Source: Chrysomallon squamiferum | Lineage: Eukaryota; Mollusca; Gastropoda; Neomphalida; Peltospiridae | NCBI GenBank assembly: GCA_012295275.1 | Contig: CM022674.1 | Span: 9,985,792 to 10,049,791 of the forward strand | DNA: 64,000 bases | Reading direction: 5' to 3' | Shown here: positions 12,301-63,497 of the stretch, in pieces | How positions within the stretch are numbered: position 1 is the first letter of the stretch | Layout of the letters: the number at the start of each line of letters is the position of its first letter | Made by a program: the position numbers and the translations under genes | Notes under the pieces: model-generated | The model's input: the letters and a program-made list of their open reading frames with translations, nothing else | Told to the model about the DNA's origin: nothing | The model's database searches: none

Positions 12301-12324
12301 ATGCTTAAAAATGTTTGTACTTGA
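6319..12324 (+). CDS. Pax: Pax-family transcription factor, paired domain only (no homeodomain); possibly Pax-beta type
   Basis: Seven coding exons join in frame: 6319-6600, 6781-6912, 7466-7640, 8315-8480, 9073-9210, 9658-9778 and 10420-12324, totalling 2919 nt or 972 residues. All junctions are GT/AG. An in-frame TAA lies 6 nt before the ATG, which supports this start. The N-terminal region is Ser/Glu-rich, followed by a Gln-rich exon and an acidic exon. The paired domain spans residues ~197-323: the PAI half is in exon 4 ([36 protein letters not shown]) and the RED half in exons 5-6 ([34 protein letters not shown]). These are the DNA-binding helices of Pax proteins. No homeodomain or octapeptide is visible. 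The 635-codon last exon is Ser/Thr-rich and carries PLDLS at ~726-730, a CtBP-binding type motif. RED residues resemble Pax2/5/8, but [11 protein letters not shown] replaces the usual VNQLGGVF.NG, which suggests a divergent lophotrochozoan class such as Pax-beta. Pax identity is certain; the class is inferred. Confidence 0.93.
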
Positions 12325-35200: not shown

Positions 35201-38200
35201 TTTATATACTGGCAGTAAAAACTGATGTTTGTATTTGTTAGCTCTAAAAAGTGATGTTTGTATTGTTTATTAGCTCTAAAAAGTGATGTTTGTATTTGTT
35301 TATTAGCTCTAAAAAGTGATGTCTGTATTTGTTTATTAGCTCTAAAAAGTGATGTTTGTATTGTTTATTAGCTCTAAAAAGTGATGTCTGTATTTGTTTA
35401 CTGGCAGTAAAAAGTGATGTTTGTGTTGTTTATTAGCTCTAAAAAGTGATGTCTGTATTTGTTTACTGGCAGTAAAAAGTAATGTTTGTATTTGTTAGCT
35501 CTAAAAAGTGATGTTTGTATTGTTTATTAGCTCTAAAAAGTGATGTCTGTATTTGTTTATTAGCTCTAAAAAGTGATGTTTGTATTGTTTATTAGCTCTA
35601 AAAAGTGATGTCTGTATTTGTTAGCTCTAAAAAGTGATGTTTGTGTTTGTTTATTAGCTCTAAAAAGTGATGTTTGTATTTGTTAGCTCTAAAAAGTGAT
35701 GTTTGTATTGTTTATTAGCTCTAAAAACTGATGTTTGTATTTGTTAGCTCTAAAAAGTGATGTTTGTATTGTTTATTAGCTCTAAAAAGTGATGTCTGTA
35801 TTTGTTTACTGGCAGTAAAAAGTGATGTTTGTGTTGTTTATTAGCTCTAAAAAGTGATGTTTGTATTTGTTTATTAGCTCTAAAAAGTGATGTCTGTATT
35901 TGTTTACTGGCAGTAAAAACTGATGTTTGTATTGTTTATTAGCTCTAAGAAGTGATGTCTGTATTTGTTTACTGGCAGTAAAAAGTGATGTTTGTGTTGT
36001 TTATTAGCTCTAAAAAGTGATGTCTGTATTTGTTTATTAGCTCTAAAAAGTGATGTCTGTATTTGTTTATTAGCTCTAAAAAGTGATGTCTGTATTTGTT
36101 TATTAGCTCTAAAAAGTGATGTCTGTATTTGTTTATTAGCTCTAAAAAGTGATGTCTGTATTTGTTTATTAGCTCTAAAAAGTGATGTTTGTGTTGTTTA
36201 TTAGCTCTAAAAAGTGATGTTTGTATTTGTTTATTAGCTCTAAAAAGTGATGTCTGTATTTGTTTACTGGCAGTAAAAACTGATGTTTGTGTTGTTTATT
36301 AGCTCTAAAAAGTGATGTCTGTATTTGTTTATTAGCTCTAAAAAGTGATGTCTGTATTTGTTTATTAGCTCTAAAAAGTGATGTCTGTATTTGTTTATTA
36401 GCTCTAAAAAGTGATGTCTGTATTTGTTTATTAGCTCTAAAAAGTGATGTCTGTATTTGTTTACTGGCAGTAAAAAGTGATGTTTGTGTTGTTTATTAGC
36501 TCTAAAAAGTGATGTTTGTATTTGTTTATTAGCTCTAAAAAGTGATGTCTGTATTTGTTTACTGGCAGTAAAAACTGATGTTTGTATTGTTTATTAGCTC
36601 TAAAAAGTGATGTCTGTATTTGTTTACTGGCAGTAAAAACTGATGTTTGTGTTGTTTATTAGCTCTAAAAAGTGATGTCTGTATTTGTTTATTAGCTCTA
36701 AAAAGTGATGTCTGTATTTGTTTATTAGCTCTAAAAAGTGATGTTTGTATTTGTTTATTAGCTCTAAAAAGTGATGTCTGTATTTGTTTACTGGCAGTAA
36801 AAACTGATGTTTGTATTTGTTTATTAGCTCTAAAAAGTGATGTTTGTGTTTATTAGCTCTAAAAAGTGATGTCTGTATTTGTTTACTGGCAGTAAAAAGT
36901 GATGTTTGTGTTTATTAGCTCTAAAAAGTGATGTCTGTATTTGTTTACTGGCAGTAAAAAGTGATGTTTGTGTTGTTTATTAGCTCTAAAAAGTGATGTC
37001 TGTATTTGTTTACTGGCAGTAAAAACTGATGTTTGTATTTGTTTATTAGCTCTAAAAAGTGATGTCTGTATTTGTTTACTGGCAGTAAAAAGTGATGTTT
37101 GTGTTGTTTATTAGCTCTAAAAAGTGATGTTTGTATTTGTTTATTAGCTCTAAAAAGTGATGTCTGTATTTGTTTACTGGCAGTAAAAACTGATGTTTGT
37201 ATTGTTTATTAGCTCTAAAAAAGTGATGTCTGTATTTGTTTACTGGCAGTAAAAGTGATGTTTTTGTGTGATGTTGTATTTTATTAGCTCTAAAAAGTGA
37301 TGTCTGTATTTGTTTATTAGCTCTAAAAAGTGATGTCTGTATTTGTTTATTAGCTCTAAAAAGTGATGTCTGTATTTGTTTATTAGCTCTAAAAAGTGAT
37401 GTCTGTATTTGTTTATTAGCTCTAAAAAGTGATGTCTGTATTTGTTTATTAGCTCTAAAAAGTGATGTTTGTATTTGTTTATTAGCTCTAAAAAAAGTTG
37501 ATGTTTAAAAGTGATGTTTATTTGTTTATTAGCTCTAAAAAGTGATGTCTGTATTTGTTTACTGGCAGTAAAAACTGATGTTTGTGTTGTTTATTAGCTC
37601 TAAAAAGTGATGTCTGTATTTGTTTATTAGCTCTAAAAAGTGATGTCTGTATTTGTTTATTAGCTCTAAAAAGTGATGTCTGTATTTGTTTATTAGCTCA
37701 AAAAAGTGATGTCTGTATTTGTTTATTAGCTCTAAAAAGTGATGTCTGTATTTGTTTACTGGCAGTAAAAAGTGATGTTTGTGTTGTTTATTAGCTCTAA
37801 AAAGTGATGTTTGTATTTGTTTATTAGCTCTAAAAAGTGATGTCTGTATTTGTTTACTGGCAGTAAAAACTGATGTTTGTATTGTTTATTAGCTCTAAAA
37901 AGTGATGTCTGTATTTGTTTACTGGCAGTAAAAACTGATGTTTGTGTTGTTTATTAGCTCTAAAAAGTGATGTCTGTATTTGTTTATTAGCTCTAAAAAG
38001 TGATGTCTGTATTTGTTTATTAGCTCTAAAAAGTGATGTTTGTATTTGTTTATTAGCTCTAAAAAGTGATGTCTGTATTTGTTTACTGGCAGTAAAAACT
38101 GATGTTTGTATTTGTTAGCTCTAAAAAGTGATGTCTGTATTTGTTTATTAGCTCTAAAAAGTGATGTCTGTATTTGTTTATTAGCTCTAAAAAGTGATGT

Positions 38201-40745
38201 TTGTATTGTTTATTAGCTCTAAAAAGTGATGTTTGTGTTTATTAGCTCTAAAAAGTGATGTCTGTATTTGTTTACTGGCAGTAAAAAGTGATGTTTGTGT
38301 TTATTAGCTCTAAAAAGTGATGTCTGTATTTGTTTACTGGCAGTAAAAAGTGATGTTTGTATTGTTTATTAGCTCTAAAAAGTGATGTCTGTATTTGTTT
38401 ACTGGCAGTAAAAAGTGATGTTTGTGTTTATTAGCTCTAAAAAGTGATGTTTGTATTTGTTTATTAGCTCTAAAAAGTGATGTCTGTATTTGTTTACTGG
38501 CAGTAAAAAGTGATGTTTGTATTGTTTATTAGCTCTAAAAAGTGATGTCTGTATTTGTTTACTGGCAGTAAAAAGTGATGTTTGTGTTTATTAGCTCTAA
38601 AAAGTGATGTTTGTGTTTATTAGCTCTAAAAAGTGATGTCTGTATTTGTTTACTGGCAGTAAAAAGTGATGTTTGTATTGTTTATTAGCTCTAAAAAGTG
38701 ATGTCTGTATTTGTTTACTGGCAGTAAAAAGTGATGTTTGTGTTTATTAGCTCTAAAAAGTGATGTCTGTATTTGTTTACTGGCAGTAAAAAGTGATGTT
38801 TGTGTTTATTAGCTCTAAAAAGTGATGTCTGTATTTGTTTACTGGCAGTAAAGTGATGTTTGTATTGTTTATTTGTGCTAAAAAGTGATGTCTGTATTTG
38901 TTTACTGGCAGTAAAGTGATGTTTGTATTGTTTATTTGTGCTAAAAAGTCCCACACACGGGCTGCCACACAAAGGTGCAGTCTGCCCTCCCATTCCTGCA
39001 CAGGAGAAACACTATATACAGACACACATATACACAAAAAAAAGAAAATAAATAAATAAATAAATCTGTTTACAAACCTCAATTCTTTCAAGCTGAGTTT
39101 CCATCATTTTATATTCACTGACTTTTGTTTGAAAGGTTTTGTCACTGAAAAAGACATCAGAGATCTACTGAATAAATGTTTATAGAATAATTAACTCGCA
39201 TCTCTGTTTCCCTGAGGCATCAAAACATTATTAATTTTATCCTACCTATAACTAGAAGGCTGCTGGTTCAATGCCTCACAGAGGCAATACTGTCATTTGG
39301 TATGCAAAACACATGGAATTATATGCCATGTAAGTGATTATAATAATAATAATAAATTTATATTGGTCTAACAAGATTGTTTACATATTACTGAAATAAT
39401 TACTCTAAAGTTTGAAACCATCATAATTTTGTATCAAATCTCAGTTAACTCAAATGTGTCTAAGCCAGAAAGTACTATTAAATTATCAACCACTAAAATA
39501 GCAATATTCCCTCACTTGAACACAAATTTTAATAAGATATAAATTCTGTGTTTGTCTATGTGTGTGTGTGAGCACAGAACAATTTTATATATAATTTATA
39601 TAATTTAAAACATATTTTCAACATATTACATTATATTAAATGAATTTTTCTATTTGATAAAAATAAATTTAAAATATCTAGACAATCAATGAAAGCTGGC
39701 TGTGTGGAAAATTTCATTTATTACTTAAATTACTGAAATGTTACTTAATAGCTAATATGATGAACAATAAGATCTTTTATTTGAATTTTTTTTTAAATGT
39801 AGTATGTTTTAAGTGCTGAATGATCTATTTTGCTAAATGAGTTTTAACATTGTTTATTATTTTCATTAAATTGCAATTACCTAATTTCTGATTGCATGTT
39901 CTCCACTTTTGCAACAAACCACTCTTTGTATTGATCCTGAAAACATTAAAAACTGGTTGTAGATGCAAAGACACAGAGTTGATAATCACATTATGTTTTT
40001 AAATGACTGTAACAGACATGTAAATTACAATAATCATTTGTTGTTTTGTTTATTATTTTTGATAAAAAGTCACTTTTATGATTCTAACTTGAGAACAGAG
40101 CAAAAACAAGTAAGCTAAAATTATTTTTACAATACCATACATTTTAGATACCTTTTTGACTTTTTAAAATTTGAATGTGTCAAACAAAAAAATAAAAATT
40201 CATGATCCATCAAAAACATTTACATAAAATTTAAAATTTATCATCTATTAAAATAGAAGCAATGACATTTTTCATTACTTTAAAATAATCTGTGGTCTTC
40301 TATTTAATATAAATGAAAAAAACAAAAAAATTCACCTGCAGTAGAACCAGTTTAGCCTGGTCAAGGCTGCATCTGTCATATGTGAGTTTGATAAGGAGAT
40401 GGGGAAGCCAGTACAAAAACAGTCGGAGAAATCCAACAGTCAGATATGTGAAAATCCACAAAACTATCTGTTTTCTTCTGTTTGGTTTGTATCCCCAGAT
40501 TTCCTATCATAAGAGGAACAAATAAAACATTAAGGCAACTTTATAAATCAACAATGACATTTTGTTTAAGAAAGTCTACAGTGCTGCACTGTATTAATCT
40601 ACATCAGTATTAGAACTTGCTCCCCCCCTCAGATTTTATGGAATGAACAATTAAATTCACAAACCATCTGATCATCATCTCTTGGGTTCACGTACAAATG
40701 ACCTGGTTTAAGTGGAGGTGGTCCAGTTTTAACTACCTTATCCAT
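20299..40745 (-). CDS. ATP13A: P5B-type cation-transporting ATPase (ATP13A2/3 group, polyamine exporter family)
   Basis: Thirty coding exons join without a frame break into 1214 residues, the usual family size. Exons (high to low): 40745-40665, 40503-40336, 39936-39881, 39144-39078, 34597-34512, 33757-33683, 33457-33388, 33082-32948, 32470-32401, 31792-31661, 31325-31149, 30819-30674, 30157-29957, 29549-29488, 29211-29067, 28530-28420, 28026-27867, 27502-27382, 27143-27019, 26678-26506, 25914-25807, 25270-25191, 24728-24576, 24316-24220, 24017-23945, 22495-22345, 21866-21721, 21359-21271, 20916-20833, 20601-20299. Visible motifs are TGES (actuator loop, ~313-316), PPALP in the membrane segment (~444-448, the P5B signature), DKTGTLTE (phosphorylated Asp ~487), KGSPE (nucleotide domain, ~633) and GDGAND (~857-862). 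An N-terminal hydrophobic segment sits at exon 40503-40336, and paired membrane segments lie in the last six exons. Known P5B ATPases sit in late endosomes/lysosomes and move polyamines from the lumen to the cytosol. The subtype within ATP13A2-5 is not resolved here. The start is discussed separately. Confidence 0.95.
20994..21064. repeat. (TG)n microsatellite in an ATP13A intron
   Basis: TG-rich run with CATG interruptions between the exons at 21271-21359 and 20833-20916. Confidence 0.95.
21984..22151. repeat. Compound TATG/TG/TA microsatellite in an ATP13A intron
   Basis: Mixed (GTATAT)n, (TG)n, (GTAT)n and (TA)n run between exons 22345-22495 and 21721-21866. The Met/Tyr/Val-repeat reading frame across it is an artefact of the repeat. 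Confidence 0.9.
22505..23830. repeat. ~27-bp minisatellite filling an ATP13A intron
   Basis: About 1.3 kb of tandem units of roughly 27 bp, each with TTCATTCTGTACACATTA and then a variable 8-10 bases (CCCACCTAC, CACAGATAT or ATACATGTA). It occupies most of the intron between exons 24017-23945 and 22495-22345. A longer period is superimposed: a block ending in ATCACAGAT recurs at 23070 and 23381, about 311 bp apart. Because 27 is divisible by 3, the array leaves reading frames of up to 428 codons open on the + strand. They are antisense to the gene and entirely repeat-derived. Confidence 0.93.
24018..24219 (-). repeat. Intron made of tandem copies of the upstream exon's 3' end
   Basis: The 202-nt intron after exon 24316-24220 is about four degenerate ~51-nt copies of the last ~35 exon bases plus the first ~15 intron bases. 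The landmark ATCAAG recurs on the + strand at 24050, 24101, 24151 and 24204 (periods 51, 50 and 53). Copies of the donor region read CTGGGTAATA, TTGGATAATT and CTGAGTAATT. The last copy carries the true acceptor TTCTTTTCAG. Confidence 0.85.
26741..26944. repeat. (TAA)n plus long poly(A) in an ATP13A intron
   Basis: (TAA)n at 26741-26789 and 26840-26864, then (AAAT)n and about 60 nearly uninterrupted A, between exons 27143-27019 and 26678-26506. On the transcript strand this is a poly(U)/UUA tract. The poly-Phe reading frame across it is an artefact. Confidence 0.93.
29597..29654. repeat. (ATT)n microsatellite between ATP13A exons
   Basis: ATT trinucleotide run of about 58 bases in the intron that splits the phosphorylation motif, close to the acceptor of exon 29549-29488. 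It produces artefactual poly-Leu and poly-Asn frames on the two strands. Confidence 0.95.
35030..38948. repeat. 3.9-kb minisatellite of 32-33-bp units in an ATP13A intron
   Basis: Roughly 120 tandem units fill most of the 4.5-kb intron between exons 39144-39078 and 34597-34512. Two monomer types alternate, both followed by AAGTGATGT and then CTGTATTTG or TTGTATTG. Type A contains TTTATTAGCTCTAAA and type B the perfect palindrome TTTACTGGCAGTAAA. Type A runs of five or six units punctuated by type B recur, and blocks starting near 36287 and 36647 recur near 37582 and 37932, so there is higher-order structure of ~1.29 kb. Thirty-three-bp units stay open as 11-residue peptide repeats, but they are intronic and broken by 32-bp units. 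Confidence 0.95.
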
Positions 40746-48700: not shown

Positions 48701-51119
48701 TCATGGGTTTGGTTTTAAATATTTCCACAGATGTTTCAGACCGGTTCTTTCCAAGTTAAAAAACAGCTTGGACACAGTTGGATCAGAGCATTTCTGTTTC
48801 CAGTGGCAAAGTAGTTGAAAAATAACCTCCTCCATCCCTCCTGCCGTGTAACTTTCATCAAATATTTTGTCCAGTGCTTCTCTTGAAATGCCAAGAAATC
48901 TTACTGAAAAAGAAAACAGTTTTGTTAGTATATCATACGCTACAAAATTGATTTAAAACAAAAAACATATCGCTTATTGGATGTCAAACAAAATGCTGAT
49001 TATTTTGTTTATAAAAATTCAAAAATTAATTATAGCACAGTGTAAAGAGGTGTGCAAAAAAAAAAAGTACCACAATTTATTAAAATTAAAATCTGTATCT
49101 CAAATTTTTTTTAACAAGATGGACAATCCTTTTTCAATGCGAGCATGACACAAGACTATCTCATCTTTCCTGCAATGCCTGTAGTAAGACTGCCAATCAC
49201 CCAGGTGGCTTGACAGAATATACCAGTAAATGTGATGTTTAAAATCATTGTAAGGCACACCAACCTCGACATGAGACAAATCTAAAGCAGACTTGGCAGA
49301 AGAATCTGCTTCTTCATTGCCGCTGATGCTAACCTGAATGGTTATCCAACAAAAAACTATATTTTTATTGGCAATATGTAACATGACATGCTTTTCTATT
49401 CCCAAGTAAGGAATGCTCCAACCTCATGGTAAAGAATTAAGACATGAAAGTGGGTCTATGAAAATAATAATTCTGGATGCAAAGGTATGTTTAATTTCTT
49501 CCAGGCTTTAAGAACTTCTGAATTTCATCAGTTACAACTGATGCCTAATCAGGCAACCTCATTGAGAAAGTTATGTCTGACGGAAAAACTGTAGCACAAG
49601 CTACAGAACTCCCATTCCACAATCCATCTGTATAAGCTATAAAATAATTAAAATGTTTTATTGTACGATTGGAAGCAAATCGTTTAAGTAATATTTGTTA
49701 AGAGTTATATTAGTTATTAAGACTGCATCATCTATTTCATTAAATTCATACACTCTACATAAACATCATTATCTCATTCCATTATGTGTCTCATCATCTA
49801 TATTAATGGGGGTTTTTCAGTCAAAAATATATTCAATATCAGCTGAAATATTAATAAAACTTCAAAGCCTCAATTTTGAAATTGGCTGTAATTTAATATC
49901 TTACTCAGTAATCTCCAAGGGTCACCAACATTTCGTGCAACATCTTTCAACTGGTCAACACTGACTTCTTCATTAGAGTCTGAAAATAAAGAAATTAGAT
50001 ACAGAAAATAATAATATTTTTATATTTAATCTTTTTATTTACACGCAGATCAGCTGTAAAAATCAGTCCAGCCCCTCATTATTTAGATGATGTTTCTAAA
50101 AAATGGATCCTCATGATAGTAAGTCAATAGAGGCTTTAAAAGATATGCTATATATGTATAAACTAGAATCTAGTTATCTGGTGGTTGTGGGAGCCTTCTA
50201 ATGTACCCAGACCTAAATCAGGTATAATCAGAGCTAGAAAGAAGGCAAAAATATAAATAGGATGTCAAAATTATAACATATGAGAAAATACTTATGACAT
50301 GTTAATACCCTTTCAAAACCAAACCACTTGCACTCAAATAAAGTAATTCTTACCACGCACAGACTGAATATCCTCCTCTTCTGGTGAATCACTGTCATCA
50401 CTATCATCACTGTCATAATCCTCTCCTGATGCATACATGATATTATGATTTCCAATCTGAATTTGTCGATTACCTTGTATCAAATACAAGTTATTTACTT
50501 GATCTGAAAACGTAAAATGTATATATAATTCAGAATATATAAAATATATTTAAATTTTAAAAATCAAACATTAAAAGAAGGAAGAAATGTTTTTTTAAAC
50601 AATTTTATAAAAATATGGCATCGTACATATGTTAAAAACATTATAAAAAGCAAATCTACTCCTAACATACTAAGAAATATTAAAAAAACAAAACAAAAAA
50701 AAACTTACTTCCAAACTTAAATTTCTGGCCTGCATCTAAAATTATAAAGGTAATATTTACAAAAATATGATGTTTCATAATTATTTTATAATTAACCATT
50801 CAAAATGAAGAACTTGTAAAATTATTTTATTACATATTTATTTTCAAACACTTTTTAAAAACCTAACAGTGGCATGTTTTGTAGCATTCTTGAAGGTTGT
50901 CAGTAATTGTGAGAAAATATCTTTTTGAATCAAGCTAAATTACTAATTAATAATTTGGGGGGGGGGGTCTTCAGACATGACATAATTAAAAAAAGAAGAT
51001 AAAAAAGATACTTACTGTGTCCAGTTTGAAATCGTTGCCATTCATCTGAAATTATTTCAACACATATAAGATTTTCTTAGATCGTTTTCTTTATTTTTCT
51101 TCATTATTATTATTATTAT

Positions 51120-51162
<43 letters not shown>

Positions 51163-51240
51163 TTTACCTGGTATTTTTGAAACAGTTTTTTGTAATATTT
51201 CTTTTGGAATTAAGGAATTACTTTCCTGCCTGTCAGCCAT
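48701..51240 (-). CDS. RHIM-plus-death-domain adaptor, copy 1 (RIPK1/IMD-like, kinase-less)
   Basis: Six exons (51240-51168, 51045-51016, 50735-50709, 50503-50354, 49979-49905, 48903-48701), all introns phase 1, give 185 residues. Residues ~45-68 contain I-Q-I-G at 58-61 followed by N64 and M66. This fits the RIP homotypic interaction motif consensus (I/V)Q(I/L/V)G..N.(M/L/I), the amyloid-forming core of RIPK1/RIPK3-type proteins. Next comes an acidic stretch (DYDSDDSDDSDSPEEED, ~74-90). Residues ~97-182 form a death domain: SVDQLKDVARNVG, PWRLLIRFLGISREALDKI, EEVIFQLLCHWKQK, TVSKLFFNLERTGLKHLWKYL. There is no kinase, signal peptide or membrane segment, so it should act in the cytosol, recruiting death-domain partners and polymerising through the RHIM. 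In-frame TGA lies just before the ATG, and the ATG follows a polypyrimidine tract plus CAG, so an upstream non-coding exon is likely. The role is inferred from the domains. Confidence 0.85.
49085..49650 (-). mobile_element. Relic of a non-LTR retrotransposon RNase H domain in intron 5 of copy 1
   Basis: On the - strand, decayed coding sequence reads AYTDGLWNGSSVACATVF, then SVVTDEIQ, then RIIIFTDPLSCL, then FCWITIQVSISGNEEADSSA and WQSYY. This is the order of the RNase H catalytic blocks (YTDG, E, FTD, GNE.AD) found at the end of non-LTR retrotransposon polyproteins. Stops and frameshifts interrupt it, so it is a dead fragment. Homologous fragments lie in the same intron of the other two copies. 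Confidence 0.75.
50947..50971. repeat. G-run in intron 2 of RHIM-death copy 1
   Basis: TTTGG followed by a run of G before TCTTCAGACATG. It is preserved at 57422-57434 in copy 2 and shows how recent that duplication is. Confidence 0.7.
51118..51164. repeat. (AGT)n microsatellite beside exon 1 of copy 1
   Basis: (ATT)n then (AGT)n immediately downstream of the exon 1 donor. On the transcript strand it is (ACT)n about 4 nt into the intron. The equivalent tract in copy 2 is at 57571-57629; copy 3 lacks it. Confidence 0.9.
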
Positions 51241-51294
51241 CTGTCAAAAAAAAAAAAAATAATAATAAACAAATTTAAAATTAAAATTAAAAAT

Positions 51295-51325
<31 letters not shown>

Positions 51326-51757
51326 TGAGTTAGCAACTTATGCTATCAAAATGTATTTTAAACACTGTAAAGATTCGAAATTTTTGTATTGATTTTTTTG
51401 TTTTTGTTGTTATTGTTGTTGTTGTTAACTGTAATTCGTAATAATACTAATAGCTCGGTTACTCCGGATACACTTAACCTAATAACTACTTTTTCATTTT
51501 CATTTTAATTTATCCTTATTGGCCACAGATATTCGCTTCTGTACTACATTTTTGTAAAAGTTAGGTTTGATTATAACCTACAGTATATAGTATTAAAATA
51601 TTAACTTCCTTCGAATCCTTGTATACAGAAATAAAACGAATCAAAACGTTTTGGGAATTTTTATAATTCATTAAATTGAATTACCATGTGATCTAATAGA
51701 TATCTAATTTACATTCTTCATTTACAAAACAGAACATCTGCCTAACAAATATCAAAC

Positions 51758-51900
51758 CTGAACAACAACAATTTGCAAACCTTTCCCGAAACTGAAACTG
51801 ATGTAAATAACTTATATCTGTAACAGCGGAAGACTGGTAGCGTCACCCTCTTACGAACAAACGACTGGCGGGAATTTTGACTGGTTGATAATTGCTTTAA
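51758..51900 (-). promoter_or_regulatory. Predicted 5' non-coding exon and promoter-proximal region of copy 1
   Basis: A TTGTTCAG|GTTTGA donor at 51758/51757 pairs with the acceptor at the ATG of 51240, giving an untranslated first exon with no upstream ATG over the ~90 bases I checked. Within or just upstream of it lie GAAACTGAAACT (51788-51799), matching the IRF/ISRE core in inverse orientation, and GGGAATTTTG (51870-51879), a partial kappa-B-like sequence. Both recur at the same positions in copy 2. Exon and factor assignments are inference. Confidence 0.4.
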
Positions 51901-52249
51901 TTAACTAGAGAAAAAGTAGGTGATCCAAAATATTAGATAGTTTCCAAGCAGCGACGCGCGATTTCCATTTATTAGTGTGTATTTCTCTGATATGGCCTGC
52001 CGGTGTCCACTTCGATATTTTTATATGGTCAGTCATATCTGTGATTCATTGACCAAGTCGAATAAAAAATATAATAAAATATTTCTAGGCGTTTTTTAAA
52101 ATGTTTTACGATACGATATATTTAACACACTTATTTACATATTTATTTGGCCGTTAATTTATTCTTTGTCTGTTTAGATACAGCTTTCATTTTCGTACCA
52201 TACATCACTGTTGGAGATATGCCTCAGTTGTAGATGATTTTTATCGATT

Positions 52250-52434
52250 ATTTTTCTGTAGTTTCATTGTTAGAAATTTATGTTTGATAATAAGTTACCT
52301 TTCTGTAGTTCTTTCCCTCTATGATGATTGTCATCTTTGCGTTCCTCCGAGCTCTGGGTAGTTGTATACACCTTAGCATGGCAAACAATGACCACGCCCA
52401 TCTTTCTGCCTCGGGAGTCCAGAATTGTTTGTTT

Positions 52435-52465
<31 letters not shown>

Positions 52466-52556
52466 AATGTGAAGAAACACGCTTTAAAAAAAAAAAAAAA
52501 AAAAAAAAAAATTCGACATGCTCAATGAATCTATGGAATTTATTTATTTTAGTGGG

Positions 52557-52587
<31 letters not shown>

Positions 52588-54540
52588 TCCTTGAGATTGT
52601 CCAATGATGCCTACCACGAAAAGAATTCAAAACATGTATGTATGTATGTATGTATGTGTAAAGTGCTGGGGGGAGCAAGGTAAGCGGATCTCGTGAAACC
52701 GATTGGTTGTATAATATACATACGTAATATATATCCCTGTCCAAAAAATAACAAACAAGACGGGGTTTTCAATTAAAGGACTTTAATATTAGTTAATTCC
52801 TGGTATAGCAATGTTAACATTTACAATATGGTAAGCCTGGCGTCTCCAAGGAGGACAAACTCAGTTTACCAGGTTCATAAAACAAATCACAATAAAAATT
52901 CTACATTTACAAAACTTAAAACATCAAACCAATGCAAAAATCCTGATGTTTAGATAAAAAGAAAATAATTACAAATAAATATATTTAACAACCATATAAT
53001 CAAATACATAATATTTAAATGCAGTTCGATAAAATCAAATCTGAGAATTCAATTACACGCATTTTAGTATTAATCTCAACCGTTGAAGTTCAATCACTCC
53101 TAACTGATATCAGTTTCACCCCATCCCAAGTGTTAAATGTAATCTTAATCAAAAGCAAATAACTTCAGCAAAGGTTCTGTTCTCTTTTGCAGGAAAGGAT
53201 TAACCTCTAGCTAACGCCAGATTAGTCGGTGTGATTTCATGTTTATCTGTTTCTCGCACTTGGACACCTGGCGTACTAATACTAATCTATCTATTATCAT
53301 TTCTACCATATATGTTAACTAGAACTAATTACATTATATAAAAGTCTCTATAAAAATCCTTTATGCATATATACATGAACTTCCTGTAATTGTTCTTTAT
53401 ATTTGGTTATACTGATAACTCAGAAATTCAAAGAAAAGAATAACTGTTATGATAAAGATACATTTACGAGCACATGTAAATTAACAATAACATATCAATA
53501 TAAAACCTATGCATATCAATATAAAACTGTAACTTTAACTTATGTAAGTAGTGATGTCAGTAACACTTACCCAACACGACCGGTGTCGCCACATGAACAG
53601 AAATAATACGTATCAGCTGTATTTACTTTTAAATACATTTCCAAACCCCATTAAATTGTTATAAATTGTAACCACTGTTACTTAAAGTTATGCCAAGTCA
53701 TTTAATAAATTGTGAACTAGTATATTCAAAATAAATGAAAGTCCACAGGTAAAATATAATTATCGTCTTATCTTTAATATGACATATCTTAATTATCCCT
53801 TTTTAATAGAAATATTAAAATAAAAGCAATAAACTTACATTAATTACTGATCTGTAGCATTTATGTGAAACCAAATATACAAATGCTTATCTTGACTAAC
53901 AGTTGTATAAAGGTCCTGTAATGTCCACGGCCAAAGTGCAATGTTTTGGTCTCGGACAATTCTCCCCTTAAATTCCAGACAGCAGTTGCTATATTTGGTC
54001 ACGTCACATGACCATACAGTCCCCAGTGCTAACGAAAGCTCCCACTAATTACTTTTAAAACATTATATTCTGACCTTTAGGCTACAATGGCTATCATTTC
54101 TCTTTTCTACACATGTATGAATCTATGAATGTAACGGGGTATGTACGAGGTACAGAGTCAAGGAGAGTATATTTGTGATGAATAAAATAATTATTATATT
54201 CTAAGTCAATCAAGACGGAGTTTCAAATCAAAACCAATGACAGAGAGATTAATGTATAAAAACTATTTTTATTATAATCTGATGTCTCCAAAAGGGCCAA
54301 ACTTACCTTCACTAACAACCGATATTTTTGTCATGTCAATAAATACATTGGTTCCCAGTGCAAACGCTCTCAACAGGATGCAGTAATCGTAATTCATCTA
54401 CTAGCACTTAACTCAGATTACTTTATAAACGAATAAACAGTAAATACTGACCTGTCTAGAATGGAAAATAATTATTTTTATTTCTCTCTTCTACAGATAT
54501 AAGGAAAATAACTGAACTAATGGATCGGGTTTTTTTTTTT
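52250..54540. other. Spacer between RHIM-death units 1 and 2, with dispersed-repeat fragments
   Basis: No coding exon. It contains (TTTA)n and paired A/T runs (52433-52585), (GTAT)n at 52637-52658, and two versions of an unclassified repeat (around 52750-52900 and 54120-54310). Each has a CGGAG/CGGGGTTTTC-type start followed by a (C/T)TG(A/G)(C/T)GTCTCCAA block. A third version is at 59690-59900. The region at 54330-54480 matches 60060-60190, upstream of unit 3's tail. Confidence 0.5.
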
Positions 54541-55574
54541 GGTGGGGGTTTCTTGTACTCTTTTTGAATATTTTCTTCTATTGTTTTTAGGTCTTTGTTT
54601 TTCTTCGCTGATTATTATTTTTTCATTATTTATTTTTCTACTTATTTATTTATTATTATTGTTGTTGTTGTTGTTGTTATTATTATTAATTTTATTATTA
54701 TTATTATTATTATTTTCTTATTCTTGTTTTTTCACATTACAAATTTAGTGGAGTTTTATTTTTATTTATTTATTTCTATTATTTTATTTTATTTTATTTG
54801 TTTTTATAACACAACAACAAAATATCAACAAGCAAGACAGCAGTTTGAGTTATTTATTTATATACAGAACATATTTTATAATAATATAAAATAAACGCAA
54901 CTAAATTATTTACAGTTTCGCGGAAATCTGAGTTAAAATAGATTAAATATATATTAAACAATATGCCTTTAATGACACAGATTCCTCTACCTGATTATGA
55001 TATGAGAAATACAAGGGAGAAAACTATCTTAACATATCCCGCTGCCACATGCTTATCAAAGCAAGGCCAATGTTTCACGTTTTCCCCCGTGACCTCCCGT
55101 TTTCTTCTTTGAGCACCTCGACTCAACACCCGAAGCCCGTATACATTAGATTCCTGTGAATGTCAGTGAAAACCGAGAATCAAAGAGCCATGCGGGTGAA
55201 CAAATTTTAACGCTTTCTTAGTTTGTCACACAAAACTCGACCTACCTTGGCCGCTAATTAACTTGACGTTAAAATTTAAAAACTGCCTATAAAAAGTTTG
55301 TCATCGACTATTTTACTGTAAAGGGGTCAACATAATTTTATTATCTGCACACATCGAAAGTTAAACACAGTTTATTAACTGATCATAATTACTAATATAT
55401 ATTTATTTAATTTTCTCTTTTCGATTTTATATACAGAAACTTGATAACGTCAACATTATATATATACATATACAAATTAGTAATCTGATAAAATATCTAT
55501 AGTTAGCAAATGTGTCTAATGAAACACACTTTTGCATTAAATACAAGATTATCTGTCTTCATCACACTTCGTAT

Positions 55575-57591
55575 TCATGGGTTTGGTTTTAAATATTTCC
55601 ACAGATGTTTCAGACCGGTTCTTTCCAAGTTAAAAAACAGCTTGGACACAGTTGGATCAGAGCATTTCTGTTTCCAGTGGCAAAGTAGTTGAAAAATAAC
55701 CTCCTCCATCCCTCCAGTCTCGTAACTTTCATCAAATATTTTGTCCAGTGCTTCTCTTGAAATGCCAAGAAATCTTACTGAAAAAGAAAACAGTTTTGTT
55801 AGAATATCATACGCTATCAAACTGATTTACAATAATCAATTGATGAATATTTATGAACTCAGCACAAAAACACATCGACTATTGGATGCCAAACAAAGGT
55901 AAATACAACAAAATTCAAAAATTAATTATAGCACAGTGTAAAGAGCTGTGCAAAAATAAAAGTACCACAGTTTATTAAAATTAAAATTCTGTATCTCAAA
56001 GGTGGATAATCCTTCTTCTATGCGAGCACGACAGACGATTATCTCATCCTTTCTGCAAAGCCTGTAGTAAGACTGCCAATCACCCAGGTGGCTTGCCAGA
56101 ATATACCAGTAAATGTGATGTGTAAAATCATTGTAAGGCACACCAACCTCGACATGAGACAAATCTAAAGCAGACTTGGCAGCAGAATCTGCCTTTTCAT
56201 TGCCCCTGATGCTAACCTGACTGGTTATCCAACAAAAAACTATATTTTTACTGGCACTGGATAACATGACACACTTTTGTATCATCATCCCAATTAATGA
56301 ATGCACCAATCTCATGTCGTAAAGTATTAAGACATGAAAGTCTCAATTCTGAAATTGGCTGTAATTTACTATCTTACTCAGTAATCTCCAAGGATCACCA
56401 ACATTTCGTGCAACATCCTTCAACTGGTCAACACTGACTTCTTCATGAGAGTCTGAAAATAAAGAAATTAGATACAGAAAATAATAATATTTATATATTT
56501 AATCTTTTTATTTACACGCAGATCAGCTGTAAAAATCAGTCCAGCCCCTCATTATTTAGATGATCTTTCTAAAAAATGGATCCTCATGATAGTAAGTCAA
56601 TAGAGGCTTTAAAAGATATGCTATATATGTATAAACTAGAATCTAGTTATCTGGTGGTTGTGGAGAGCCTTCTAATGTACCCAGACCTAAATCAGGTATA
56701 ATCAGAGCTAGAAAGAAGGCAAAAATATAAATAGGATGTCAAAATTATAACATATGAGAAAATACTTATGACATGTTAATACCCTTTCAAAACCAAACCA
56801 CTTGTACTCAAATAAAGTAATTCTTACCACGCACAGACTGAATATCCTCCTCTTCTGGTGAATCACTGTCATCACTATCATCACTGTCATAATCCTCTCC
56901 TGATGCATACATGATATTATGATTTCCAATCTGAATTTGTCGATTACCTTGTATCAAATACAAGTTATTTACTTGATCTGAAAACGTAAAATATATATGT
57001 AATTCAGAATATATAAAATATATTTAAATTTCAAAAATCAAACATTAAAAGAAGGAAGAAATGTTTTTTTAAACAATTTTATAAAAATATGGCATCGTAC
57101 ATATGTTAAAAACATTATAAAGAGCAAATCTACTCCTAACATACTTAGAAATATTAAAAAAAAATACAAACTTACTTCCAAACTTAAATTTCTGGCCTGC
57201 ATCTAAAATTAAAAAGGTAGTATTTACAAAAATATGATGTTTCATAATTATTTAATAATTAACCATTCAAAACGAAGAAATTGTTAAGTTAATTTATTAC
57301 ATATTTATTTTCAAGCACTTTTGAAAAACCTAATATTGGCATGTTTTGTAGCATTCTTGAAGGTTGTCAGTAGTTGTGAGAAAATATCTTTTTGAATCAA
57401 GCTAAATTACTAATTAATAATTTGGGGGGGGGGTCTTCAGACATGACATAATTAAAAAAAGAAGATAAAAAAGATACTTACTGTGTCCAGTTTGAAATCG
57501 TTGCCATTCATCTGAAATTATTTCAACACATATAAGATTTTCTTAGATCGTTTTCTTTATTTTTCTTCATTATTATTATTATTATTATTAT

Positions 57592-57628
<37 letters not shown>

Positions 57629-57706
57629 TTTACCTGGTATTTTTGAAACAGTTTTTTGTAATATTTCTTTTGGAATTAAGGAATTACTTTCCTGCCTGTC
57701 AGCCAT
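55575..57706 (-). CDS. RHIM-plus-death-domain adaptor, copy 2
   Basis: Six exons (57706-57634, 57511-57482, 57202-57176, 56977-56828, 56452-56378, 55777-55575) have exactly the exon lengths of copy 1 (73, 30, 27, 150, 75, 203), giving 185 residues. The RHIM core IQIG..N.M and death domain are intact. Visible differences from copy 1 are few: SHEE for SNEE at the start of exon 5 and SYETGG for SYTAGG in the death domain. Introns are also near-identical, so this is a recent tandem duplicate. Intron 5 is shorter because ~420 bases present in copy 1 (about 49450-49868) are missing. The upstream region repeats copy 1's promoter elements and is then partly duplicated again. The inferred role is as for copy 1; whether both are expressed cannot be seen. 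Confidence 0.85.
55996..56335 (-). mobile_element. RNase H relic in intron 5 of copy 2 (truncated)
   Basis: Carries only the C-terminal part of the relic seen in copy 1 (FCWITSQVSIRGNEKAD, then VGVPYNDF and GDWQSYY). The N-terminal RNase H blocks were lost in a deletion whose left edge is at GACATGAAAG near 56336. The longest open stretch is 129 codons but has no intact domain, so it is not counted as a gene. Confidence 0.75.
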
Positions 57707-58299
57707 CTGTCAAAAAAAAAATAATAATAATAAACAAATTTAAAATTAAAATTAAAAATATTTAAAAAAAAAAAAAAAAAAAAAAGAGTTAGCAACTTGT
57801 GCTATCAAAATGTATTTTAAACACTGTAAAGATTCGAAATTTTTGTATTGATTTTTTTGTTTTTGTTGTTATTGTTGTTGTTGTTAACTATAATTCGTAA
57901 TAATACTAATAGCTCGGTTACTCCGGATACACTTAACCTAATAACTACTTTTTCATTTTCATTTTAATTTATCCTTATTGGCCACAGATATTCGCTTCTG
58001 TACTACATTTTTGTAAAAGTTAGGTTTGATTATAACCTACAGTATATAGTATTAAAATATTAACTTCCTTCGAATCCTTGTATACAGAAATAAAACGAAT
58101 CAAAACGTTTTGGGAATTTTTATAATTCATTAAATTGAATTACCATGTGATCTAATAGATATCTAATTTACATTCTTCATTTACAAAACAGAACATCTGC
58201 CTAACAAATATCAAACCTGAACAACAACAATATGCAAACCTTTTCCGAAACTGAAACTGATGTAAATAACTTATATCTGTAACAGCGGAAGACTGGTAG

Positions 58300-58534
58300 C
58301 GTCACCCTCTTACGAACAAACGACTGGCGGGAATTTTGACTGGTTGATAATTGCTTTCATTAACTAGAGAAAAAGTAGGTGATCCAAAATATTAGATAGT
58401 TTCCAAGCAGCGACGCGCGATTTCCATTTATTAGTGTGTATTTCTCTGATATGGCCTGCCGGTGTCCACTTCGATCGATTTATATGGTCAGTCACATCTG
58501 TGATTCATTGACCAAGTCGAATAAAAAATATACC
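58300..58534. repeat. Upstream-region repeat, first part in unit 2
   Basis: Nearly identical to 59073-59305 and to 51838-52075. It includes GTCACCCTCTTACGAACAAA, the GCGGGAATTTTGAC block and GCAGCGACGCGCGATTTCC. This is the segment interrupted by the 58535-59072 insert. Confidence 0.85.
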
Positions 58535-59072
58535 GTATATACTTGTGTATAAGTCGAATTTTTGGGAGACTATATTAAGGTAATATTTTGGGGGTCGACT
58601 TATACATAGGTAATGCTTTTGTAGCTGTTGCTGAAGAGTCGCCATTTTGACTATTTTTTGCTACGGGATGCATCTAAAATAATCGCGGTCTTTCAGCTTT
58701 TCAAAAATATAATTTTATCGTATAAAAAATTTTGAAAAATTAAATAACAAAACCAATTATGAATGTAAAACATGATATTCTTCCGTTTAATGGCATAAAA
58801 ATACATTTTAAAGCGAGAAAACCGTCAGTACAGCGTTATGCCTTACGGCGTCTTGCAATGATCTAGGAATGCAGACTTCTCTGCCAAATTCCACAAAATA
58901 TCGGTCCTAATTTCATAAACAAAACTCACTTGTGTAATTGTAAAGAATTTGGTGAAATAATATTGCAATCGTCATTAATATCCACTACCGACAAATCGAA
59001 AACAAGAGATACTATTTATGATACCTTTAGGTTATAGCTCGTGTAATACATGCATTTACGTTATTATGGTAC
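58535..59072. mobile_element. Candidate mobile-element insert upstream of copy 2
   Basis: About 540 bases absent from the equivalent place in unit 1. It starts with ACCGTATATACTTGTGTATA and contains an inverted repeat, TATAAGTCGA near 58549 and TCGACTTATA near 58597, about 50 bases apart. No open reading frame of note is present, so if it is a transposon it is non-autonomous. No clear terminal inverted repeats or target-site duplication were found. The flanking 235-bp direct repeat is too long to be a target duplication. Confidence 0.4.
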
Positions 59073-59480
59073 GTCACCCTCTTACGAACAAACGACTGGC
59101 GGGAATTTTGACTGGTTGATAATTGCTTTCATTAACTAGAGAAAAAGTAGGTGATCCAAAATATTAGATAGTTTCCAAGCAGCGACGCGCGATTTCCATT
59201 TATTAGTGTGTATTTCTCTGATATGACCTGCCGGTGTCCACTTCGATATTTTTGTATGGTCAGTCACATCTGTGATTCATTGACCAAGTCGAATAAAAAA
59301 TATAATAAAATATTTCTAGGCGTTTTTTAAAATATTTTACGATACGATATATTTAACACACTTATTTACATATTTATTTGGCCGTTAATTTATTCTTTGT
59401 CTGTTTAGATACAGCTTTCATTTTCGTACCATACATCACTGTTGGAGATATGCCTCAGTTGTAGATGATTTTTATCGATT
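59073..59480. repeat. Upstream-region repeat, second part in unit 2
   Basis: Re-starts the unit-1 upstream sequence at GTCACCCTC and runs on through TTTCTAGGCG and TTGGAGATATGCCTCAGTTG, matching 51840-52247. Unit 2 therefore contains one and a half copies of the presumed promoter region. Confidence 0.85.
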
Positions 59481-60740
59481 ATAATTCCACATAGTCAGTT
59501 AACTGAATTTACTGAAAAGACTTTCTTAATTTTTTTTAATTTTTTTTTCACTTGGAGATTGTCCATGGTAACTATGGAGCCATTAGAGGACAACCACGAC
59601 AACAATTCAAAACATGTATGTATGTATGTATGAATGCTTCTTTGTATGTATGTATGTATAAATGTATGCATGCATGTATGTACGACTGTATGCATATAAC
59701 TTGGGGTGTAGGAGGCACTGAGTCGAGTAGAGTGTATGTGTGACCAATAAAATAATTATCATGTTTTGAGACAAATAAACAACACGGAGTTTCACATTAA
59801 GGACGTTAATAATATGTAACCACCAATAATAGAGAGATTAAAGTATAAAAATAAAAAAGAATGAGTTATCTGGCGTCTTCAAGGAGGACAACTTGACCCA
59901 GGTTCACAAACATATATTTAATTAATACGAAGTATAATTAAAATGTAGTAAAATTAGCACCGAAAACAAACAAAAACAAACCAAAGCAAACCAAACCCAA
60001 CATGATAGTCGCTAACAATGAACTGTCAATACCCTGCTTTCTGATACGTCAGGTGGCCCTTCAGTTCCCAGTGCGAATGCTATCAGTAGGAGGCAGTAAT
60101 CGTAATTTATCTACTAGCATTTACCTCAGATTACTTTATAAACTAATAAACAGTAAATACTGACAGGTCTAGAATGGAAAAAATGATTATTATAGCTCTG
60201 TTCTACTCTTTTTTTAAGGAAAATAGCTAACAGAGGGAGTTTTTCTTGCATTGTTTTTATGTTTATGTTTTTCGTGGATATTGTTCATATATTTATTTAT
60301 TTATTTATTTTATTTTATTTTTATTTTTTAATTGTCGTCTTTCAACTATCAAGTCTCAAATTTAGTGGAGTTTTATTTATTATTATTATTATTTAACAAA
60401 ACAGTAACACATCAACAAACAAGAGGGCAGTTTGAATTATTTATTTATATACAGAACATATTTTGCGATGATATAAAACAAATTAAATTATTATTTGCGC
60501 GAATGTCAGTGAAAACCGGGAATCAAAGAAAAAAGTGAAGCCATGTGAGTAAACAAATTACAAAGCTTTGTTAGTTTGTCGCACAAAACTCGACAATCTT
60601 AGCCCCTAATTAACCCAACTTTACAATTTAAAAACTGCCTTTGAAAGTTCGTCATCGGATGTTATGGATGGTCAAACAGAATTTCACATAACGGCAGTTA
60701 AAGGCAGTTTATTTACTGATTATAATTATTAATACATATT
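59481..60740. other. Spacer between units 2 and 3
   Basis: No coding exon recognised. It contains (GTAT)n tracts at 59614-59690 and the third version of the unclassified GGCGTCT(T/C)CAAGGAGGAC repeat (59770-59900). A segment at 60060-60610 resembles 54340-55260 above unit 1/2, showing that the spacers were duplicated along with the genes. Confidence 0.55.
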
Positions 60741-60945
60741 TATTTAATATATTTGATATTATTTTATCTTTTCGATCTCATATATACAAACTAGATAATC
60801 TCAAGATTATAGATATATAAAAATTAGTATTGTGATAAAACGTCTATAGTTAGCATTGGTAAAAGAAACGTAGCTAACGAAACACAATTTTTTCGTTAAA
60901 CAAAAAAGAGATTATCTGTCTTCGTCACACTTGTTATTCATGAAA

Positions 60946-63497
60946 TCACAGATCTGAGTTTGGTTTCAAATATTTCCATAGATGTTTCAGGTTGGTTCTA
61001 TCCAAATCCGAAAACAGCTTGGATACAGTTGGATCAGGGCCTTTCTTTTTCCAGTAGCAAAGTAGTTGAAAAATGACCTCTTCCAACCCAGCCTTCTGAA
61101 ATTCATCGTAAATTTTGTCCCGTGTATCTGTTGTAATGCCAAGAAATTTTGCTGTAAAAGCAAATCATTTTGTTAGAATAACATAGGTTATCAAACTGCT
61201 ACAAAATAATAATGAATGAATTTTTAAGAACACTTCAGTACAAAAAACATCGGTTGTTAGATGTCAAACAAAATACTGATTATTTTATTTATAAAAATTC
61301 AAAAATTAATTATAGCACAGTGTAAAGAGCTGTGCAAAAATAAAAGTATCACAGTTTATTAAAATCGAAATGATTCCATCACATTTATTTCACAAATATA
61401 TGTCTCTACGATGATCGCACTCCACCCAAAAGTGACGTAGTGTCAGAGTACACTGAAACGGTTCACACTGAGATGGACAATTCTTCTTCAAGGATAAATT
61501 AATGGGTCTAACAAGGATGACCAATGCGAGCTCGACACAAGACTAACTCATCTTTCCTGCAATGCCTATAAGAGGACTGCCAGTCTCACAGTCATTTTGC
61601 CAAATGAAAAGATATTTCGGTAAATTTGATGTTAAAATCATTGTAAGGCACACCAACCTCGACATGAGACAAATCTAAAGCAGACTTGGCAGCAGAATCT
61701 GCCTTTTCATTGCCCCTGATGCCAGTCTAACTGAGTATCCAACAAAAAAATATTTTTTTATTGGCGCTACATAATATGATACGCTTTTATATCATCATCC
61801 CAATTAAGGAATACTCCAACCTCATGGTAAAGAATGAAGACATGAAAGTGGGTCTGTGAAAATAATAATTCTGGATGCAAAGGAATGTGTAATTTCTTCC
61901 AGGGCTTGAAGAACTGCCTGAATTTCGACAGTGAGAACTGATGCTGAATAAGGAAACCTTTTGGAAAAAGTTATGTCTGATGGAAAAACTGTAGCACTTC
62001 TGCATAAGCTATAAATAATTAAAATGTTTTATCGTACGATTTGGAGCAAATCATTTAAATAATATTTGTTACAGTTATGTTAATTATTAACACTGTAATA
62101 CCTATTTTATTAAATTCGTAAAAACCGCATAAAGATCATTATTTCATTCCATTATGGTTCTCATCATCTCTATTAGTGAGGTATTTTAGGTATTTTAGGT
62201 TAAAAAACATATTCAGTATCAGTTGAAATAATAAATAAAAATTCAAAGCCTCAAATTTGAAATTAGCTGTAATTAAATATCTTACCAAGTAATCTCCAAG
62301 GTTCACCAACATTCCGTGCAACCAACCTCAACTGTTGATCACTGACTACTTCATCACAGGCTGAAAATAAAGAAATGAGATAAAGAAAATAGTATTTATG
62401 TTATGTTATTAATCTTTTTATTTACACACAGATCAGCTATAATAATCAGTCCTGTACCTCGTGACTTAGGTGATATTTCTGAAAAAGTAATCCTCATGGT
62501 GGTAAGGCATAAAGTGTGAACAGAGGCATTAGAAGATATATGTATAAATTAGAATCTGGTTATCTAGTAGTAGTTGTGGAGAGACTTCTATCATACCTCC
62601 TAAATCAGGCATAATCAGAGCTAGGAAGAAGGTAACAGTACAAACAGGAGCTCAAAATTATTACATTTGAGGAAATATTTATGAGATGTTAATACTCTTT
62701 GAAAACCTAACCACTTGTACTCAAATAAAGTAATTCTTACCACGCACAGACTGAATATCCTTCTCATCTGCTGAATCACTATCATCAGTGTCAGAATCCC
62801 TTGCTGCTCCATACATTGTATTATGATCTCCTATCTGAAGTTGGTCAACATCTTTTATCAGAAACACGTTATTTACCTGGTCTGAAAACGTGAAATGTAT
62901 GTATAATTCAACATATATAGAATATCTTTAAATTTAATAACAAACATTAAAAGAAGGAAGAAATGTTTTTAACAAATTTATAAAAATTATATGGCTTCAT
63001 ACATATGTAAACAACTTTATAAAGAGTAACCTTACTCCTAACATGCTAAGGATTACTAAAAAAAAACATCAAATATGAAGAAGAAAAAAAAAATTGAAAA
63101 GTTCACATTTACAAAAATATCTGTAACAACTTAAGAAAAAAATTAATTCATAAGAATAATACGTAACATTTAGATTTACTTAATCTTATTCATAAATTTT
63201 ATAACCCTTTTTCAGCTATCAGTATATAAAAACTAAATTAAAAAAAAAAAAAAATACGATACTTACTGTGCCCAGGTTGAAACTGCTTTCCTCCATCTGA
63301 AATAATTTCTACAACATTATAAGATTTTCTTTCAATTTATTCAAGATATTAATTAACTGATTAGGATAACACGAAACAATTATATTTATTTAATTTAAAG
63401 ATACTGCTGAGAGCATTCTTGTCGAAATCAAATATACATTAGTCTTACCTGGTGAGTTTTCTCTAACAACTAAGGCTTTATTTTCAGAGTTTTCCAT
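60946..63497 (-). CDS. RHIM-plus-death-domain adaptor, copy 3 (diverged)
   Basis: Five exons (63497-63449, 63296-63267, 62881-62741, 62360-62286, 61151-60946), again all phase 1, give 166 residues. The N-terminus is different and shorter (MENSENKALVVRENSP). The 27-nt exon 3 of copies 1 and 2 is absent, and the frame is kept because that exon is symmetric. The RHIM core is L-Q-I-G at ~41-44 with N47 and M49, so the first position is Leu instead of Ile/Val. The acidic stretch is shorter (DSDTDDSDSADEKD). The death domain is complete (PWRLLAKFLGI, LEEVIFQLLCYWKKKG, TVSKLFSDLDRTNLKHLWKY) and ends three residues later than in the others. It is an intact older paralogue, perhaps with altered assembly behaviour; that is inference. 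Confidence 0.83.
61370..62010 (-). mobile_element. RNase H relic in intron 5 of copy 3, longest version
   Basis: Carries RFPYSASVLTVEIQAVLQAL, RIIIFTDPLSCLHSL, the GNEKAD block and a further C-terminal piece (LVLCRARIGHP, then CEPFQCTLTLRHFWVECDHR). That last piece is the short Cys/His segment that follows RNase H in many non-LTR retrotransposons. Stops and frameshifts are scattered through it. It sits in the same intron and orientation as in copies 1 and 2. Confidence 0.78.

Follow-up and report, generated by a model that had tools for sequence, protein, structure and literature searches.

A tandem cluster of predicted kinase-less RHIM and death-domain adaptor genes in Chrysomallon squamiferum, with candidate RHIM-bearing NLR-like receptors

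A stretch of 64,000 bp from the genome of the gastropod Chrysomallon squamiferum (C10:9985792-10049791, referred to here as the window) was found to possess three complete adjacent genes on its minus strand, between positions 48701 and 63497. In each, a single canonical RHIM core is followed by an acidic linker and a C-terminal death domain, and no kinase is present in the spliced products, the models of which begin at an ATG exon. This tandem cluster, together with the occurrence of the same motif before NLR-like sensors elsewhere in the genome, suggests an amyloid-based immune relay. On balance, we favor the reading that genes 1 to 3 are functional kinase-less RHIM-death adaptors, RIPK1-tail-like or IMD-like, which would act downstream of such sensors. 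Genome searches were performed over 404.6 Mb (22 contigs), with animal-genome comparisons confined to the C. squamiferum assembly itself.

Gene models, death domain and RHIM

The gene models were assembled exon by exon from the DNA, with splicing being predicted. Six coding exons give a product of 185 amino acids in both gene 1 (51240-48701) and gene 2 (57706-55575), and five give one of 166 amino acids in gene 3 (63497-60946), all on the minus strand. GT and AG are found at the ends of all 14 introns, the reading frames are free of internal stops and, from the exon lengths, all internal junctions are in phase 1. This agrees with the original prediction of three adjacent genes splicing to intact small proteins. 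The six-exon structure it proposed holds for genes 1 and 2 and fails for gene 3, where no counterpart of their nine-residue exon 3 was seen. Genes 1 and 2 appear to be recent near-copies, differing at 3 of 185 residues and sharing 97% DNA identity across 2.2 kb and 85% across another 1 kb. Spacing from a start codon to the stop of the next gene is 4.3 kb (genes 1/2) and 3.2 kb (genes 2/3). A protein database search with gene 1 gave 23 candidates, of which none reached E<=1.

The cluster runs past the window edge. A further 36 kb was read, with coordinates continuing from the window, and copies g4 to g7 were identified on the same strand as genes 1 to 3. Copy g4 (64840-66200) is a broken remnant and g5 (68358-70389) is partial, having 96% identity with gene 1 across 2.4 kb and first two exons that were not found. 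The core VQIGDSNTM and an acidic linker are present in g6 (73065-74.2 kb). Copy g7 (82.7-84.6 kb) is complete-looking, with a degenerate core (IQLNINNSI, where G is replaced by N) that falls outside the core pattern. The three-gene tandem cluster originally described is thus confirmed, though not its extent, and the proposed local expansion is borne out by genes 1 to 3 and g4 to g7 lying in tandem on C10.

The death domain had been placed at residues ~97-182. The lack of a match there had been set beforehand as refuting the call. A Pfam Death match was found at residues 102-177, and genes 1, 2, and 3 scored 29.4, 29.5, and 26.5 bits (E 8.7e-7, 8.3e-7, and 7.3e-6, respectively), all exceeding the curated cut-off of 22.6 bits. 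Copies g6 and g7 matched the same model at E 5.4e-16 and 1.3e-8. When gene 1 was compared with the PDB, the top matches were four sequences of the RIPK1 death domain (E 2.4e-5 to 2.6e-4), followed by THO complex subunit 1 (0.099, 0.11), a pair of chains that are designed or unrelated, and FADD (0.47); the g6 death domain matched RIPK1 at 1.6e-7. The death domain is split by an intron at a corresponding place in genes 1 to 3 and g5 to g7. The death fold has six helices; single-sequence fold prediction of death exon b alone (67 amino acids) gave four, with a predicted local distance difference test (pLDDT) score of 69, and a fold search with this model returned one match (E 9.6), to something other than a death domain.

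Genes 1 and 2 share the RHIM core IQIGNHNIM, and gene 3 carries LQIGDHNTM. The pattern [IVL]Q[IVL]G..N.M was found three times in the six-frame translation of the window vs. 0 times in 60 first-order Markov simulated windows, and window matches to a looser core search were confined to the RHIM exons of genes 1 to 3. Searched for genome-wide at the DNA level, the core gave 15 matches, compared with five for the backwards pattern. Seven of the 15 belong to two death-domain gene clusters (genes 1 to 3, g5, g6, and two copies on C3) and do not represent seven independent events, as some copies are recent duplicates. Among the eight matches outside the clusters, the core is broken by a stop in three and open in five, with no extended motif recognized by eye in the latter.

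Seven RHIM segments, chosen for carrying the core, were taken from C. squamiferum RHIM-death genes to make a profile (A3). Against 177,635 distinct PDB sequences it gave seven matches at E<=10, all of which are from RHIM proteins: RIPK1 (1.2e-5, 27.8 bits, and 1.4e-5), a ribonucleotide-reductase-like chain of entry 12kl (0.0064), which we take to be a viral RHIM protein, and four RIPK3 sequences (0.018 to 0.32). A joint profile of nine RHIMs, three being from the receptors described below, matched RIPK3 at 2.3e-4 and RIPK1 at 7e-4, with 8 of 8 matches being RHIM proteins. The g6 RHIM alone had RIPK3 RHIM chains as its best, weak, PDB match (0.049).

Related loci elsewhere in the genome

A second RHIM-death cluster was identified at C3:1593449-1625382 (1.593-1.626 Mb, L024-L027). 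Death exons are present in five full-length copies, a stop occurring in one, and in one broken copy. The RHIM exons number four, again with a stop in one, and their cores are IQIGNNNEM, IQIGNNNVM, TQIGNNNLM, and VQFGNNNVM. At the level of exons, three RHIM-death pairs look intact, one of them with two death exons; the copy at C3:1617-1619 kb is broken and the death exon at C3:1593 kb contains a stop. The linker after the RHIM is basic, unlike the acidic linker of the C10 genes. In the PDB the composite C3 death domain matched RIPK1 at 9.1e-12, TRADD at 7.5e-7 and FADD at 3.4e-4, and its best single-exon genome matches outside C3 were at E 0.009. No HRD-type kinase motif was detected, by regular expression rather than kinase profile, in 50 kb of C3 (200 bases masked) or in the 40-100 kb part (~60 kb) of the C10 stretch. 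A looser kinase motif gave two matches, both on C3, neither resembling a kinase catalytic loop. No kinase-bearing RIPK1 was found elsewhere in the genome in a search made without a kinase profile.

Two other loci were noted. A three-copy death-domain cluster is present at C9:5016270-5034485 (L001-L003, L029-L031), and the 30 kb read there lacks any RHIM core. The best Pfam RHIM match of the genome (20.0 bits, at the cut-off) lies at C1:46003606-46003647 (L013, L034), with the core LQLGHNNHL in an 80-residue frame and no partner domain recognized by eye within 6 kb.

The genome scan with the Pfam RHIM model of 22 columns (11 matches up to E 10, the window copies not being among them) also indicated C10:16.19 Mb and 17.2-17.6 Mb. 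A short phase 1-1 RHIM exon was found to encode KPTVNIHHCGNVQIGAENKLI at C10:17474000-17480000 (L032) and NPTVNIHDCQHFQIGAENKLI at C10:16186000-16192000 (L033). An in-phase exon downstream on the same strand in L033 encodes an nSTAND3 NTPase (E 8.5e-26) and Ank_2 ankyrin repeats (3e-28), and in L032 the RHIM exon is in phase before an nSTAND3 exon. Both loci have a Ser/Thr/Val-rich start exon (MDDKNESSE...). The receptor frame of L032 has a stop after ~300 codons, and that of L033 runs without a stop as far as the piece was read (869 codons). On this arrangement of exons, L032 and L033 are considered candidate NLR-like amyloid receptors. The best PDB match of the receptor RHIM exon alone was to RIPK3 RHIM chains, weakly (0.25).

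Used as a query, the receptor RHIM exon gave 28 places in the genome up to E 1 (12 on C10, 16 on C14). An nSTAND3 exon downstream on the same strand was read directly in L032, L033, and L067, and follows the RHIM exon by coordinates alone at C10:17.235 Mb and C14:0.559 Mb. The nSTAND3 family is probably larger than listed, as 22 of 163 candidates in its genome scan were scored. The receptor and adaptor genes that were read do not lie beside one another. At C7:4106001-4107345 (L069) a death-domain exon was observed directly upstream of an nSTAND3 exon, which would fit a receptor family exchanging its N-terminal module between RHIM and death domain. A tandem array of RHIM-receptor 5' exons at C14:254000-276000 (L037), with a unit of ~2.47 kb, was not counted as RHIMs, the two copies read being decayed (VHLG..ED.L, no donor).

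Genes for possible downstream components were also identified. A FADD gene on C15 (L007) has a DED exon and a death exon 1.3 kb apart, and tandem DED genes form a large expansion on C4:4.18-5.51 Mb.

Proposed relay and alternative explanations

An amyloid module is a plausible reading of the cluster, and the RHIM-nSTAND3-ankyrin genes offer it a possible upstream partner. At the sequence level, the predicted product of each gene joins a RHIM through an acidic linker to a death domain, in a family expanded on C10 and with a second cluster on C3. By analogy with the chemistry of the RIPK1 and RIPK3 RHIMs, the RHIM would polymerize into a cross-beta fiber once nucleated. Nucleation may come from RHIM-nSTAND3-ankyrin receptors, the genes for which are present, oligomerizing on sensing, as well as from the adaptors themselves. 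Clustered death domains could then recruit FADD, DED proteins or NF-kB components, leading to cell death or inflammatory transcription. The strongest outside support for adaptor function is by analogy with the zebra mussel, for whose kinase-less RIPK1 C-terminus (RHIM and death domain) RHIM-dependent NF-kB activation in HEK293T cells is reported (PMC12119088). A complete animal amyloid NLR signalosome, in which RHIM-nSTAND3-ankyrin sensors template RHIM-death adaptors and these pass the signal on to FADD/DED proteins, is possible, with the balance tilting slightly against it.

Several results weigh against the adaptor and relay reading. With the Pfam RHIM model, genes 1 and 2 scored 11.6 bits, under the cut-off of 20, and gene 3 gave no match; scores were also under 20 for g6 (14.5 bits), C3 (15.2 bits) and receptor L032 (16.6 bits), and g7 gave none. 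The RHIM call therefore relies on the profile tests and on a control in which the A3 flanks were scrambled and the core left unchanged. RIPK1 was still matched in this control (0.0048, 19.3 bits), as were the B chain of 12kl (0.015) and a single RIPK3 chain (0.64), indicating that most of the A3 signal is the core used to choose the rows. Three RIPK3 sequences (including 7dac) were lost and two unrelated enzymes entered at ~4, with the true flanks being worth 8.5 bits more toward RIPK1 (27.8 vs. 19.3). The earlier call of a RHIM in each gene is thus upheld by the core and by the A3 match to RIPK1, though not by Pfam RHIM.

On the receptor side, 12 of the 28 receptor-type RHIM exons were read and QIG is kept in six, the C14 copies read having HLG, LIG or VIG in its place. 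In genes 1 to 3, only 5-7 of 21 RHIM positions are identical to those of the receptors. With 8-9 of 21 (9 of 21 with L032), g6 would thus be the one to consider first for receptor contact, and cross-templating of genes 1 to 3 by the receptors is less sure than that of g6. The selection signal is modest. Between genes 1 and 3, dS is 0.36 and the ratio of nonsynonymous to synonymous change (dN/dS) is 0.67 (0.59 in the death domain), rising to 1.33 and 1.05 over the short stretches of the RHIM and linker. The ratio was 0.32 for genes 1 and 2, 0.75 for gene 1 and g5, and 1.41 for gene 2 and part of g5, the last from ten changes. This pattern is compatible with fast-evolving immune adaptors and also with weak constraint.

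Short RHIM-death proteins may alternatively serve as decoys, capping or poisoning RHIM or death-domain polymers and damping signaling. Domain-only decoys occur in death-fold families, no catalytic domain was seen here, and the copies are recent and variable. However, both modules are found together in genes 1 to 3, g5, g6, and three C3 pairs (the g7 core being degenerate), as would be expected of a bridge and not of a cap, and the zebra mussel RIPK1 C-terminus is reported to activate NF-kB and not to block it (PMC12119088). A decoy role is considered unlikely. It is quite unlikely that the genes are truncated RIPK1 tails, that is, decaying functionless copies which have lost the kinase. The broken g4 and C3:1617-1619 kb copies, the stop in the C3:1593 kb death exon and dN/dS values that are not low would all accord with such decay. 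Genes 1 to 3, however, are intact across five to six exons with start, splice sites and stop, the Death score is above the cut-off in g6 and g7, and the regular-expression searches of C3 (50 kb, 200 bases masked) and C10 (~60 kb) found no HRD-type motif.

Arthropod IMD is a small kinase-less adaptor with a cryptic RHIM and a caspase site exposing an IAP-binding motif, and it acts under RHIM-bearing PGRPs. Orthology with IMD, i.e., a retained PGRP-IMD-FADD pathway, would account for the identical order of RHIM-like motif and death domain without a kinase, and FADD is present. Although the genes resemble Drosophila IMD in being small and kinase-less with a RHIM-type motif before the death domain, they differ in having a canonical Q-I-G core where that of IMD is cryptic, an acidic linker and an expanded family. 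Furthermore, the nearest solved death domain is that of RIPK1, and no IAP-binding motif after a caspase site was recognized by eye in the proteins of genes 1 to 3. Drosophila Imd is described as carrying a RHIM-like motif (PMC7885112). A survey of the nemertean Lineus ruber reports an imd gene and found no RHIM (PMC9835746). Membership of the IMD family, one of the two matches originally proposed, is not borne out and is considered very unlikely.

Under the preferred reading of kinase-less RHIM-death adaptors, the nearest known counterpart is the C-terminal half of RIPK1, in which a RHIM is likewise followed by a death domain and which is closest in the PDB for both the death domain and the RHIM profile. 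The RIPK1-tail-like order without a kinase (RHIM, acidic linker, death domain) that had been proposed is therefore supported. Unlike RIPK1, genes 1 to 3 have no kinase or long intermediate domain, are complete at 166-185 amino acids and occur as multiple tandem copies. In spiralians (zebra mussel, Lingula), RIPK1 is described as having a RHIM and death domain and as being defined by its N-terminal kinase (PMC12119088). The combination of RHIM and death domain in an invertebrate is shared, whereas the defining kinase was not seen in the C. squamiferum genes, which are for this reason not regarded as RIPK1.

The fungal literature describes NWD2/HET-S and PNT1/HELLP as pairing a STAND NTPase with repeats and an N-terminal amyloid-type motif (a RHIM-related PP motif in PNT1/HELLP) with a separate partner in which the motif recurs. 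A similar arrangement is predicted here from the genes, although the partner is a death-domain adaptor and not a HeLo-type pore former, the NTPase is nSTAND3 and the repeats are ankyrin. Amyloid-based immune relays have so far been described mainly in fungi and bacteria. If correct, the proposal would give an NLR-like receptor a RHIM as its N-terminal adaptor, a place taken by related motifs in fungi and bacteria, and would link fungal amyloid immunity to the RIPK1/IMD branch, with common origin vs. convergence being directly testable by cross-seeding. It would also imply that the scaffold half of RIPK1 can act as its own signaling unit, which bears on the RIPK1-IMD link. No animal RHIM-STAND protein or stand-alone canonical RHIM-death adaptor was found in the literature searched, which excluded most subscription papers, and the novelty of both is provisional.

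Feature coordinates and minor observations

Table 1. Predicted exons of genes 1 to 3 and an associated repeat, in window coordinates.
Feature	Position	Strand	Basis
Gene 1 coding exon 1, start MADRQESNSL...	51168..51240	-	Splice model; ATG immediately after acceptor AG
Gene 1 exon 2	51016..51045	-	Splice model
Gene 1 exon 3, NAGQKFKFG	50709..50735	-	Splice model
Gene 1 RHIM exon and acidic linker	50354..50503	-	Core IQIGNHNIM at 50436-50462
Gene 1 death-domain exon a	49905..49979	-	Splice model, Pfam Death
Gene 1 death-domain exon b and stop	48701..48903	-	Splice model, Pfam Death, PDB match
Gene 2 exon 1	57634..57706	-	Splice model
Gene 2 exon 2	57482..57511	-	Splice model
Gene 2 exon 3	57176..57202	-	Splice model
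Gene 2 RHIM exon and acidic linker	56828..56977	-	Core at 56910-56936
Gene 2 death-domain exon a	56378..56452	-	Splice model, Pfam Death
Gene 2 death-domain exon b and stop	55575..55777	-	Splice model, Pfam Death
Gene 3 exon 1, MENSENKAL...	63449..63497	-	Splice model
Gene 3 exon 2	63267..63296	-	Splice model
Gene 3 RHIM exon and acidic linker	62741..62881	-	Core LQIGDHNTM at 62814-62840
Gene 3 death-domain exon a	62286..62360	-	Splice model, Pfam Death
Gene 3 death-domain exon b and stop	60946..61151	-	Splice model, Pfam Death
Repeated block, 0.6-1.0 kb upstream of gene 1 start codon	51835..52251	Not assigned	Self-comparison

The repeated block upstream of gene 1 has a second copy at 59067-59482 (98.6% by self-comparison) and partial copies at 58294-58532, upstream of gene 2, and from 64119 onward, upstream of gene 3, and is a candidate promoter or 5' leader. 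A coding remnant common to genes 1 to 3 is located in the intron between the death exons (49100-49423, 55929-56342, and 61522-61849); by eye it resembles the RNase H of a non-LTR retrotransposon, the longest copy having no Pfam match. Elsewhere in the window, an open frame of 643 codons on the plus strand (10393-12321) is Ser/Thr/Pro-rich with no Pfam match, and a minisatellite of 3.9 kb, with a 33-base unit in ~121 copies, occupies 35027-38949.

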